From Parvibaculaceae bacterium Mf 1.05b.01 (GTDB taxonomy: Bacteria > Pseudomonadota > Alphaproteobacteria > Parvibaculales > Parvibaculaceae), in the NCBI GenBank assembly GCA_000509225.1, contig BAOK01000001.1, forward strand, positions 744,001-808,000: DNA of 64,000 bases. Reading direction: 5' to 3'. The notes under the pieces were generated by a model. The model searched no databases and was not told the DNA's origin. It saw only the letters and a list, made by a program, of their open reading frames with translations. Of this stretch, positions 18,569-25,541 are shown in pieces. Position numbers and translations under genes: made by a program. Position 1 is the first letter of the stretch. Each line of letters begins with the position of its first letter.

Positions 18569-19222
18569 ATGACAAATAATCATGCACCAGAAGACGCCGA
18601 TACCGCAACCTTAAGCGTGGAAGAAGCACCGTCGCCCGTGCCTTCAAAAAGGCGTTTGGAAAGCCGTCGTCGCATCCTGGCTGCGGCACGTCAGCTCTTC
18701 GTTGAGCGAGGCTATCACGGCACGCGGCCGCAGGACATTTCCAAAGCTGCGGGCGTGGGGCACGGCACATTCTACCTTCACTTTGCAGACAAGCTCGAGT
18801 GTTTCCTGGCGTTTGCCGAAGAGGCATCCGCTGAGTTGGAGAAGTTCGCCGCAGAACATCATGCTGACGTTCATTCTCTTGAAGAAGGTATTCGAGAAGT
18901 TTTGAAGGCTGTCTTTGAGTATTCGGAGGAGAACCCTGGTGTGTTGGCGGCGGCGCTGACCGACATCAATGTGCTTGCTGTCGACGAGACTGACAAGGTC
19001 ATGCCGGTGGACCGCTGGGCGGAACAATGGGCGAGTACGATCCAGGAATGGGCAGACAAAGGTGTGGTTGCCCCTGATACCGATCCCATGTTCGCAGGAC
19101 ATGTTCTAGTTGGCATGATCAGGCAGGGTGGTGCCTATGCCTATCGCGTTGGTCTAGAGCCGAAAGAGACGCTGGACAAGCTGACGCGCTCGATTGTGCG
19201 CTCGCTCACCACGACGCCCTAA
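18569..19222 (+). CDS. TetR-family transcriptional regulator
   Basis: 217 residues. The N-terminal 28 are disordered. A TetR DNA-binding domain follows at about residues 30-76: RRRILAAARQLFVERGYHGT, then DISKAAGVGHGTFYLHFADK, a typical helix-turn-helix. The C-terminal ligand domain is about 130 residues with no recognisable ligand motif. It stands ahead of, and probably controls, the 344-residue protein and SDR genes that follow. Palindromes on its own putative -35 suggest autoregulation. ATG start; the region just upstream is AT-rich without a strong ribosome-binding site. Confidence 0.93.
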   Translation: MTNNHAPEDADTATLSVEEAPSPVPSKRRLESRRRILAAARQLFVERGYHGTRPQDISKAAGVGHGTFYLHFADKLECFLAFAEEASAELEKFAAEHHADVHSLEEGIREVLKAVFEYSEENPGVLAAALTDINVLAVDETDKVMPVDRWAEQWASTIQEWADKGVVAPDTDPMFAGHVLVGMIRQGGAYAYRVGLEPKETLDKLTRSIVRSLTTTP

Positions 19223-19276
19223 AGAATATTTCGCTCAGCTGCCATGCGAAATGGCGAGCGGTTTCAGGAGGAAACA

Positions 19277-20311
19277 ATGGACAAGCTTGTATACACACGT
19301 GATGAGTTGATGGCGGATCACCCTTACGCCAAAGAGCACCGTGAAGTTGGCTACCTGCTGCATGGCGGCTTTGACGAAAAGGGCACCTATATCTCCCCTA
19401 AGACACTCCATCGGTGGCCTGCCATTCATGCGTGGCAAAAAGCGCTAACGGATAATGGATGGGATCTGGTCGAAGCGACAGGCGACCTGCTGCATCGTGG
19501 AAACTATCCAAACCTCGCGCAGCAAAAGCTCCTGATCAATAACGGGTATGGCGAGTCGTTCTGGAACTCGCTCACCGTCACCGGGATCATCGAAGCCCGC
19601 GGCCAAATTCTCTGCACGGTGGAGGCCCCTGACTATCAAGACATTATTGTTGAAGATATTTCTGAGACCGCAACGGGTCACCTGAATAAGGGTCTGCTCT
19701 ATGCTCATGGTGCTGATGAGGGGGGAGATCCTGCTAAGCCCGAATATGGCGCCCATGATGCGATGTGGTTTGCAGCGCGCGATCTGGTGTTCGGGAAAGA
19801 TACGTACCCGCTCGTGGAACCACCTGAATCTATCGGACGCCCTGATCAAGGGCGGCTCATGCCGCAATTGCCTGAGCCTCACGAAGGATTGCTTCTTCTC
19901 CTCATGAATGTCTTGATGATTGAAGTGCGGGCAGAAGCATTCTTCGCACACTCAGTCGCCCTCATGCGCGACCGTGAGATATTTAGCAATGAGGCGGACG
20001 CTGAGCAGGCGGCGACTATGGTTGAGCGCATTCGGATCGACGAGTCTGTTCACGTTGGATATCTGCAGACGGTTATTTCCGAGATGCGCAGCTTTACCTT
20101 TAAGACCGTCGATGGCGGCACGATTCCGGGTAAAGACCTGATTGACCCAGTTTGGAAAAACATGGTGATCTGGCACGGGGAAACCCAGTTCGATCTCTCC
20201 AAAGAACAAAGCTACGAAAACATCAAAGAGCGTCTTCTTTCAAAAGAGAACGGGCAAAAACTGCTCGCCGATTTTGATGCGCTCGACACCTATAGCGAGA
20301 AAGCAGCTTAA
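19277..20311 (+). CDS. Uncharacterised 344-residue protein, possible ferritin-like diiron protein
   Basis: I do not recognise the family. No signal peptide or membrane segment. The second half contains MIEVRAEAFF (E216, E220) and, 40 residues on, DESVH (E256, H259) inside predicted helices. This E plus ExxH spacing is the iron half-site of ferritin-like diiron proteins. In the first half GIIEARGQ and ISETATGHLNKG are candidates for the other half-site, but the spacing is not canonical. Start at ATG 19277 behind AGGAGGAA. Its stop shares one base with the start of the SDR gene (TAATG), so the pair is translationally coupled. A TetR gene lies directly upstream. An oxygenase or desaturase role is only a hypothesis. 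Confidence 0.75.
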   Translation: MDKLVYTRDELMADHPYAKEHREVGYLLHGGFDEKGTYISPKTLHRWPAIHAWQKALTDNGWDLVEATGDLLHRGNYPNLAQQKLLINNGYGESFWNSLTVTGIIEARGQILCTVEAPDYQDIIVEDISETATGHLNKGLLYAHGADEGGDPAKPEYGAHDAMWFAARDLVFGKDTYPLVEPPESIGRPDQGRLMPQLPEPHEGLLLLLMNVLMIEVRAEAFFAHSVALMRDREIFSNEADAEQAATMVERIRIDESVHVGYLQTVISEMRSFTFKTVDGGTIPGKDLIDPVWKNMVIWHGETQFDLSKEQSYENIKERLLSKENGQKLLADFDALDTYSEKAA

Positions 20312-21195
20312 TGAAACAAGTAGAAGGGCGTACAGCCTTCATCACCGGTGGCGCCAGCGGCATCGGTCTCTCCATGGCGCGGTCATTTGGTCGGGCCGGC
20401 ATGAATGTCGTGCTCGCAGATATTGATCCAGATGCATTGGAGACTGCACTTGCCGATCTTCACCAACGGCAAATCAAAGCGATCGGTGTCGAATGTGACG
20501 TCGTCTCCCGTGAGTCGATGCAGGAAGCTGCAAAAAAGGCAATCGCTGAATTCGGAAAGGTCCATGTCGTCTGTAACAATGCAGGCGTCGGCGCTGGCGG
20601 TCCGATTGAAGAAGTGCGTCCCAGCGACTGGGACTGGGTGATTGACGTGAACCTAAAAGGTGTTGTGATTGGCACGGAAGTCTTTGCGCCGATCATGCGC
20701 GAACAAGGCGAGGGGGGGCACTTTGTGAACACAGCCTCCATGGCCGGTATGGTGTCGCCTCCGGGAATGGAACCCTATAACGCAACCAAGTTTGCCGTTG
20801 TTGCTATGTCTGAAGGCTGGCGCGGACAGCTGGAGCCCCTTGATATTGGTGTTTCTGTTTTGTGCCCTGGATTTGTGAAAACCCGTATCCACGAGTCAGG
20901 TCGCGCGCGTCAGTCCGAATATGGCGAAGCGGTTGAGGAAAATGAGGCCGTCGCCGGCGCGGCTGCTGAGTTCGTCTTGAACGGACTGGACCCGGACCGG
21001 GTTGGTGAGCGGGTGTTGGAAGCTGTTCGCGGAAATGAGCTCTACATTTTTACGCACCCGGACATGCGGCCTGCCGTTGAGATGCGGTTTGCGGGCATCA
21101 TGGAAGCGTTTGATCGCGCTGAACAGAGTGATGCGCTCAAAGGTTCTGGTTATTCTTCTCCTCAGGACCTCACAGCGATCGGTCGTCAGGAGTAG
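20311..21195 (+). CDS. Short-chain dehydrogenase/reductase (SDR)
   Basis: 294-residue classical SDR. The cofactor motif TGGASGIG is at residues 12-19, NNAG follows, and the active site is Y156/K160 (YNATK) with an upstream Ser in NTASMAG. The Asp at the end of beta-2 (VVLADIDPD) favours NAD over NADP. The C-terminal 40 residues extend beyond the core. It is coupled to the upstream 344-residue protein by a one-base overlap, so the two probably act on the same substrate. A perfect FNR-type site begins 32 bases after its stop but belongs to the next gene. Confidence 0.9.
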   Translation: MKQVEGRTAFITGGASGIGLSMARSFGRAGMNVVLADIDPDALETALADLHQRQIKAIGVECDVVSRESMQEAAKKAIAEFGKVHVVCNNAGVGAGGPIEEVRPSDWDWVIDVNLKGVVIGTEVFAPIMREQGEGGHFVNTASMAGMVSPPGMEPYNATKFAVVAMSEGWRGQLEPLDIGVSVLCPGFVKTRIHESGRARQSEYGEAVEENEAVAGAAAEFVLNGLDPDRVGERVLEAVRGNELYIFTHPDMRPAVEMRFAGIMEAFDRAEQSDALKGSGYSSPQDLTAIGRQE

Positions 21196-21226: not shown

Positions 21227-21268
21227 TTGATCCGTATCAAGGGCTGCGCACTGCGCGGCCCTTATTGT
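21227..21268 (+). promoter_or_regulatory. FNR/FixK-type box and -10: class II anaerobic promoter
   Basis: Perfect palindrome TTGATCCGTATCAA (21227-21240), the FNR/FixK/DNR consensus TTGAT-N4-ATCAA. TATTGT (21263-21268) lies where a -10 should be if the box centre is at -41.5, with transcription starting near 21275. The start codon of the Cys-rich secreted protein follows at 21301. Confidence 0.75.
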
Positions 21269-21300
21269 TTGTCCTGTCGATAGCATTGGAGGTCGGACAA

Positions 21301-21798
21301 ATGCGGACGCTTTTACGTTTATCAATCTTCGCTGCGGGTGTGCTCTTTTTGACAGGTCCGGTTATGGCTGCGGGAAACGTTATTGCCTTCAAGAATGATT
21401 CCTGCGTCGCCATTCATTTGGAAGCAGAAGGCAACGACGCGTGTTTTGGGTATGGTGGATGCCAAATTCAGGTCGCGCCCTATCAGACCAAACATGTGGA
21501 GCTGCGTCCGGGTGTGCGCCCTAAATGGGCGCAGATTAATGTGACGGGTTCTTGTGAGGAAAAGCAGCTGACCCTTGTTGGCCAGTGTGCGGTTGACTTA
21601 GAGCAGGTCTTCCGGGGGAGTGGTTATATGCCGGGCCGCGCCCCAGGCGAAGGCGCAGGCGACCTTACGCCCGCTTTTGAGGAGGTTGTCGGTCCGTTCG
21701 ATCCAGGCGTCTCCTTCGCGACAGTGCGCTTGAGTGTTGGACTCTGCGAAGAAATGGACGGACATGATCGTTGTGACGTTCGGTGCGACGTGGACTAG
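21301..21798 (+). CDS. Uncharacterised secreted eight-cysteine protein
   Basis: 165 residues. A signal peptide covers residues 1-23 (cleavage near VMAAGN), and the mature part of about 142 residues holds eight cysteines: SCVAI, ACFGYGGC, SCEE, QCAV, LCEE and RCDVRCD. An even number in an exported protein suggests four disulfides. The centre is Pro/Gly-rich (PGRAPGEGAGD). No domain recognised. Start at ATG 21301 with TTGGAGGTC upstream; the frame is open back to 21265. An FNR-type box with a matching -10 lies upstream, so expression at low oxygen or with nitrogen oxides is likely. The NO reductase gene 4 kb away has a similar box. Confidence 0.75.
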   Translation: MRTLLRLSIFAAGVLFLTGPVMAAGNVIAFKNDSCVAIHLEAEGNDACFGYGGCQIQVAPYQTKHVELRPGVRPKWAQINVTGSCEEKQLTLVGQCAVDLEQVFRGSGYMPGRAPGEGAGDLTPAFEEVVGPFDPGVSFATVRLSVGLCEEMDGHDRCDVRCDVD

Positions 21799-21804
21799 GT
21801 GGAG

Positions 21805-22038
21805 CTAACCTGGCCTTACTTTGACCAGCCAGACGATCAGCAACACAAGAAGGCTAAGCGTGAGCGCCGCGCCTACAGGGTCCCAAAGCTCAAGCTTCGG
21901 AAATAGGCCGATCCAGGCTTCCCATGCCAACTCGGTGGCTTCACGTATATCGCCCCAAGCTTGGCGAGGCAGGTCTGTCCAATCCGCGCCCTGGGGCGGC
22001 GGTGGAAGATTTCTGACAGCTGTGTCTCTCATAGACAT
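21805..22038 (-). CDS. Small tail-anchored hypothetical protein
   Basis: 77 residues. The N-terminal half is soluble with a PPPP stretch, then Trp-rich (DWTDLPRQAWGD, AWEAWIGL). One C-terminal membrane helix follows (about residues 55-73, GAALTLSLLVLLIVWLV) with KVRPG outside, so the protein is tail-anchored. A good ribosome-binding site (CGGAGG, 8 bases) supports the ATG at 22038 as real. No homologue recognised. It is convergent with the eight-cysteine protein gene and ends 6 bases from its stop. Confidence 0.6.
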   Translation of the reverse strand: MSMRDTAVRNLPPPPQGADWTDLPRQAWGDIREATELAWEAWIGLFPKLELWDPVGAALTLSLLVLLIVWLVKVRPG

Positions 22039-22259: not shown

Positions 22260-22421
22260 ATGAAACGCACACGTATGATGGTATTTGGCGCCTTGTTTGC
22301 TGTTCTTGCTGGGGCAGGCGCTCTGACCTTGACCGCAGAACCTGCCTACGCTTGTTCCGGCGGCAGCGGTGGCAATGGTGGTGGCGGCAGCTGGTCCTGG
22401 GATTGGTACTGGAGTAACTGA
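22260..22421 (+). CDS. Small exported Gly/Trp-rich peptide
   Basis: 53 residues: a signal peptide with basic start MKRTRMM, hydrophobic core and cleavage site AYA before Cys32. The predicted mature peptide is 22 residues, CSGGSGGNGGGGSW followed by SWDWYWSN, with one Cys, a glycine spacer and four Trp. The Cys at +1 is not in a normal lipobox, since the -3 residue is Ala. ATG start with CGGAG upstream. The open frame extends back to 22146 without a start that would fit an export signal. A strong terminator follows, so this is probably an independent monocistronic unit. Function unknown. Confidence 0.6.
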   Translation: MKRTRMMVFGALFAVLAGAGALTLTAEPAYACSGGSGGNGGGGSWSWDWYWSN

Positions 22422-25527: not shown

Positions 25528-25541
25528 TTGATCCAGATCAT
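25528..25541 (+). promoter_or_regulatory. FNR/NnrR/FixK-type box upstream of NO reductase
   Basis: TTGATCCAGATCAT matches TTGAT-N4-ATCAA with one mismatch. Centred at 25534.5, it would place a class II start site near 25576, between the two possible start codons of the NO reductase. No strong -10 is visible. Confidence 0.65.

Follow-up and report, generated by a model that had tools for sequence, protein, structure and literature searches.

The 64-kb stretch of DNA analysed here (the window), which comes from a marine alphaproteobacterium, contains a gene for a secreted protein with eight cysteines, preceded by a perfect FNR/FixK-type box that lies at class II distance from a predicted −10 element. 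With a probability of roughly two in three, we read this locus as a monocistronic low-oxygen gene that is driven by an FNR-type regulator in class II fashion, from a promoter overlapping the terminator of the preceding gene, and that encodes a Sec-exported, disulfide-stapled, non-catalytic beta-sandwich protein. A preliminary description of this locus had proposed an unclassified secreted eight-cysteine protein behind an FNR/FixK-type class II promoter, and this proposal is upheld by the conservation of the box, the presence of a gene for a suitable regulator and the invariance of the cysteines. The sequence comparisons reported here give good support to an FNR-type promoter in front of a new periplasmic protein. 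The features of the locus are:

20311–21195, + strand: upstream SDR gene (Pfam adh_short, 5.5e-51)
21227–21240, + strand: palindromic FNR/FixK-type box TTGATCCGTATCAA, by motif match; predicted centre at −41.5
21239–21263, + strand: intrinsic-terminator hairpin AAGGGCTGCGC-ACT-GCGCGGCCCTT with T-rich tail ATTGTTTGT, filling the promoter spacer
21263–21268, + strand: predicted −10 element TATTGT, exactly 22 nt after the box
21275, + strand: predicted +1, unmapped, derived from class II geometry and giving a 26-nt leader
21288–21292, + strand: Shine-Dalgarno sequence GGAGG, 8 nt before the ATG at 21301
21301–21798, + strand: coding sequence of the secreted eight-cysteine protein (165 aa), an open reading frame with homologues
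21301–21369, + strand: predicted Sec signal peptide (residues 1–23), read from the sequence; ends ...VMA-AG, no lipobox
21370–21795, + strand: mature domain with C35, C48, C54, C85, C96, C149, C158 and C162, a predicted beta-sandwich
21805–22038, − strand: gene convergent to that of the eight-cysteine protein; encodes a single-span membrane protein of 77 aa and is kept in the congeners G001–G004

A predicted class II promoter that overlaps a terminator

The box TTGATCCGTATCAA is the sole perfect TTGAT-N4-ATCAA match within the window, in which a scan allowing up to two mismatches finds 44 matches. By arithmetic on the coordinates, the 22-nt spacer between the box and TATTGT corresponds to FNR class II geometry, and about 1% of boxes would by chance have a TANNNT exactly 22 nt away in one orientation or the other. 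The preliminary description had placed a perfect box and a TATTGT in class II position, and all its coordinates proved right; what it had missed is that an 11-bp hairpin fills the spacer between them.

This hairpin (−20.5 kcal/mol, z −4.2) begins about 44 nt past the SDR stop codon and has both the GC-rich stem-loop and the T-rich tract of an intrinsic terminator. We assign it to the SDR gene because it is retained in two congeners that lack the downstream gene (G005 and G004, the latter with a full TTTTTT tail), and by these sequence features it is the predicted terminator of that gene. A third congener, G006, has a different terminator of similar strength at the same place. Promoter and terminator overlap in the gene-bearing genomes, the T-rich tail providing the −10 element. 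The eight-cysteine gene appears to be insulated from the SDR transcript and its downstream neighbour is convergent, so that it would need its own promoter.

Co-occurrence of box and gene within the genus

The eight-cysteine gene is present in four congeners, namely the window's genome (G000) and G001–G003, whose proteins are 83–90% identical to that of the window. Across these four genomes, none of the 10 columns of the box half-sites is variable, the four positions in the middle of the box show one variation, and 16 of the 31 columns in the flank from the SDR stop to the box vary. The promoter spacer has no variable column either (0 of 23), and the −10 element is TATTGT in three of the genomes and TATCGT in G001. 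The lack of substitutions in the spacer is attributable to its double role as SDR terminator; conservation over the whole stretch would thus partly reflect the terminator, and simple conservation would mislead.

More informative is the same site in the three congeners without the gene (G004, G005 and G006), which was located using the SDR gene as an anchor. The perfect box occurs in 4/4 congeners with the gene and in 0/3 without it. In G004 and G006 a terminator is present and both the box and the gene are absent, and in G005 the terminator is accompanied by a one-mismatch remnant of the box, TGGATACGTATCAA, and a leader-like stretch, again with the gene absent. Because the perfect box is missing at gene-less loci that retain the terminator, we regard the box as coupled to the eight-cysteine gene, with which, as far as these alignments reach, it travels. 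Joint gain or loss of box and gene, with the terminator staying, makes such a promoter readable even though a lone perfect box is uninformative here.

The reason for the latter is a simple count, which speaks against our main reading in that perfect boxes are not over-represented genome-wide: the 3.82 Mb of G000 (two contigs) contain 11, versus about 14 expected from the frequency of the half-site TTGAT in the window, so that a lone perfect box is not beyond chance. Several of the 11 sit within genes or recurring intergenic sequence. Two of them (G000:C2:456677 and 2349116) are in recurring intergenic sequence (TTCCGGACG.AAAAC ... TTTTCCTGGAA.CGCT), and box counts in such genomes are therefore contaminated. 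With the number at chance level and 2/11 in recurring sequence, we dropped the definition of a regulon by counting perfect boxes. All 11 lie on the 2.84-Mb contig and none on the 0.99-Mb contig, which may be chance. The distances from TTGA-N6-TCAA to TANNNT in G000, copied by hand from the genome scan for a binomial test, cluster at 20–23 nt (13/33, p ~0.001). One perfect box with a TANNNT at 21 nt lies by an AttM-like lactonase gene (G000:C2:901328-901368); this box is perfect in G003 and has one mismatch in G002.

The chance-level count would also suit an explanation in which the palindrome is fortuitous, the conserved stretch is the SDR terminator only, and transcription of the gene comes from read-through or from a promoter that has escaped recognition; it would suit this explanation too that the hairpin is the most conserved part. 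We nevertheless consider it improbable, since a terminator stands in G004, G005 and G006 where both the gene and a perfect box are missing, the invariant half-sites lie nearly all outside the hairpin, the −10 element is exactly 22 nt away, and other genes, with diverged spacers, have kept this plan, as described in the following section.

A candidate FNR-type regulator and further candidate targets

An FnrL/FnrN-like regulator is encoded at G000:C2:176711-177451, with CADCDVRSRAIC (Cx2Cx7C), a further cysteine downstream of it within LCQMPR, and a recognition helix that reads ETVSR; this signature was found in 8/8 genomes examined. Its best NCBIfam score, 173 bits for FnrL, falls under the curated cut-off of that model (300), so that the name FnrL denotes resemblance only. 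Several further Crp/Fnr proteins are encoded in the genome; among those read, the cysteines and ETVSR occur only in the FnrN-type protein, which we infer to be the one acting at the box.

About 5–6 kb from the regulator gene lies ccoN, upstream of which four genomes have a weaker box, TTGATCTACGGCAA, that is half-conserved and followed after 22 nt by TAAAGA; ccoN probably shares the plan of a box, 22 nt and a −10 element. The plan was also read at two other genes:

L034:3657-4273 (G000:C2:1606157-1606772): hsp20, TTGATTTTTGTCAA-N22-TAAAAT, conserved in G001
L041:3238-3734 (G000:C2:2403237-2403733): a second secreted protein, with no Pfam family, behind a box-N22-(−10) promoter

For hsp20 the plan is found in two genomes (with TAAAAT and TAAAGT), and for the second secreted protein it is conserved in G000, G001 and G002 (with GATAAT, GATAAT and AATAAT, respectively). 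The spacers of both promoters have diverged in sequence, the plan itself being kept. In Rhizobium, FnrN is needed for an sHSP to be induced microaerobically by way of an anaerobox (PMC11784457), and in E. coli 19 of the 23 directly FNR-activated promoters with a known start have their site near −41.5 (PMC3688515). We regard hsp20 as a likely FnrN target.

An undescribed family with eight invariant cysteines

The product had been described beforehand as a secreted 165-residue protein with eight cysteines and no recognised domain. We likewise read a Sec-type signal peptide and eight cysteines, and the profile searches came back empty: Pfam gave a single spurious match to the protein (E=0.2) and NCBIfam none, searches with the protein and its homologues in Pfam, NCBIfam and PHROG reached a best E of only ~0.02, and neither PDB profile searches nor tblastn of plasmids gave a match to the eight-cysteine protein. 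Iterated profile searches did find homologues in two genera of the bacterial family, in 4/4 of the genomes compared from another order, and in members of two additional families. Nine of the 385 genomes of a class sample have one, and a phylum-wide sample of 398 genomes contained no homologue except in the window's own genome. Among the loci compared, the window's closest named relatives are Tepidicaulis marinus and a Rhodobiaceae MAG. Each of the 12 aligned sequences has the full set of eight cysteines, the most distant being ~15–25% identical; in one member (G152) a small insertion shifts the sixth cysteine by one column. Beyond the cysteines, Asn32, one proline and a few glycines are invariant. 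Judged by these searches, the protein family is unnamed, undescribed and patchily distributed among alphaproteobacteria.

The box is confined more narrowly. In Tepidicaulis and a close relative, the near-boxes TTGTGCTGGATCAA and TTGTTCTGGATCAA begin 70–71 nt before the ATG, compared with 74 nt here. Because near-boxes would agree in position to within ±5 nt by chance in fewer than 1% of cases, given the 44 matches with up to two mismatches per 64 kb, we take the Tepidicaulis near-box to be probably a degenerate ortholog of the box. The 400 bp upstream of the homologues in the other order contain no TTGA-N6-TCAA, TTGAT or ATCAA. The question whether homologues keep the box, raised in the preliminary description, thus has a divided answer: the congeners with the gene do (4/4), the sister genus has a near-box only, and the distant homologues have none within 400 bp. 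That description had also considered homologues lacking both box and cysteines; the cysteines, as stated, are invariant in the family. By these comparisons the promoter would be a lineage feature and the cysteine framework a family feature. The decay of the box in Tepidicaulis and its absence upstream of the more distant homologues count against our main reading, as does the TATCGT of G001.

Function could not be read from gene neighbours, a route that we abandoned, as none of them explains it: an LLM-type gene replaces the SDR gene upstream of the eight-cysteine gene in Tepidicaulis, and most of the distant homologues adjoin MFS and pyruvate-kinase genes. The SDR gene of the window is itself preceded by TetR and ferritin-like genes (18569–20311), and these also lie upstream of the eight-cysteine gene in Tepidicaulis (L008/L009 2800-4420). 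Further downstream in the window (22260–22421, + strand) is a conserved Gly-/Trp-rich exported peptide of 50–53 aa, MKRTRMMVFGALFAVLAGAGALTLTAEPAYACSGG...SWSWDWYWSN, which has one cysteine at its presumed cleavage site and is found in 7/7 congeners, including those without the eight-cysteine gene.

Predicted fold and role of the cysteines

Profile methods and structure prediction, which had been suggested as a check on the mature protein, gave no family match and beta-sandwich models of moderate confidence. Two AlphaFold models of different lead sequences, built on shallow alignments of sequences from the window and from related loci, are both all-beta sandwiches, with mean pLDDT of 70 and 74. 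Foldseek returned no match at E<=0.001 for either model, and the best VIA-align Z scores were 7.0 and 7.9, which may reflect no more than a common arrangement. The models suggest an Ig/transthyretin-like beta-sandwich; the modest pLDDT values and the Foldseek result weigh against our main reading. Thaumatin was considered since it recurs among the weak Foldseek rows, with partial matches of 60–75 columns (E 0.1–0.3); it is missing from the VIA-align rows. A sequence relation to thaumatin found no support, with an hhalign probability of 0.4% versus one thaumatin sequence and eight cysteines versus a 16-cysteine pattern.

The motifs CxxC and CxxCH, looked for as signs of a thioredoxin-like protein or c-type cytochrome, are absent from the protein and not conserved in its homologues, and there is no invariant His, Asp or Glu and no conserved Met among the 12 aligned family members. 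Since conserved polar or His residues and these motifs are lacking, the cysteines would form structural disulfides rather than serve catalysis or haem binding. They could instead be functional, their thiols serving under low oxygen in a periplasmic protein that buffers metal or redox state, which would fit the invariance of all eight while most positions change, and also the predicted expression at low oxygen, when periplasmic oxidation changes. Besides the missing CxxC, CxxCH and conserved His or Met, however, the cysteines are spread over the predicted beta-sandwich as in disulfide-stapled secreted proteins, and we hold a functional role to be unlikely.

Separation from the NO reductase

25528–25541, + strand: one-mismatch box TTGATCCAGATCAT upstream of a quinol-type NO reductase (qNOR) gene, from a motif scan

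A similar box at an NO reductase had been noted before, and this was correct: it lies ~4.3 kb away, differs by one mismatch and is conserved in G000, G001 and G003, with a poor −10 (CAGAGT) at 22 nt. The link to nitrosative stress that had been drawn from it was not sustained: in G002 the box and the eight-cysteine gene are present and qNOR is absent, which makes qNOR and the eight-cysteine gene separable, and the closest NorB homologue of Tepidicaulis is at a different genome position from the eight-cysteine gene. That an NO-responsive Crp/Fnr protein (NnrR/DNR-like) reads the promoter, the protein serving nitrosative stress with qNOR, is very unlikely in our view, for although qNOR 4 kb off carries a conserved similar box and the genome has several further Crp/Fnr proteins, this explanation must contend with G002 and Tepidicaulis, with the want of a good −10 at 22 nt before qNOR, with box-sharing partners (hsp20 and ccoN) that are low-oxygen genes in relatives, and with a cysteine and ETVSR signature seen, among the regulators read, only in the FnrN-type protein.

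Proposed mechanism and comparison with known systems

Under our main reading, the gene would be monocistronic and induced when oxygen is low. An FnrN-type regulator whose iron-sulphur cluster is oxygen-labile would bind the box at −41.5 and, as a class II activator, bring RNA polymerase to TATTGT, with transcription starting near 21275. The SDR terminator in the spacer would block read-through, leaving expression dependent on the FNR-type promoter. Once the product has passed through Sec and lost its first 23 residues, its cysteines would be oxidised to four disulfides, and the mature protein would most likely be a non-catalytic binding or stabilising protein of the periplasm or cell surface. 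What is new is the undescribed protein family, the regulatory arrangement, an FNR-type switch, being of known kind. At somewhat less than even odds, the family might be described more fully as a new exported eight-cysteine beta-sandwich that joined the microaerobic FNR regulon in this genus and acts in the periplasm by protecting or by binding a ligand, its promoter being set on the preceding terminator. The link to low oxygen and FnrN would give an undescribed exported family a condition that can be tested, the clue usually missing for such proteins.

Among known proteins, the disulfide-rich secreted beta-sandwiches of Ig/transthyretin/thaumatin type are alike in that a Cys-stapled secreted sandwich is predicted here too, and there are weak partial fold matches to the PepT2 extracellular domain (Z 7.0–7.9), transthyretin and the N-terminal part of thaumatin; however, no sequence relation to proteins of this type was found, Z stays below 8, and the eight-cysteine spacing is the family's own. 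As for regulation, the E. coli FNR promoters with a site at −41.5 (PMC3688515) share the consensus TTGATNNNNATCAA and its position relative to the −10 element, whereas the regulator here is of the Cx2Cx7C kind and the start position is predicted from sequence alone. The FnrN/FixK class II promoters of Rhizobium leguminosarum (fixN, fnrN, hypB and the sHSP gene rlv_1399; PMC11784457) have the TTGA-N6-TCAA anaerobox and an FnrN-type regulator in common with the present locus, and sHSP and cbb3-oxidase genes are further candidate targets in this genome. The locus differs from these promoters in that its spacer is the terminator hairpin of the preceding gene and its target an unnamed secreted protein.
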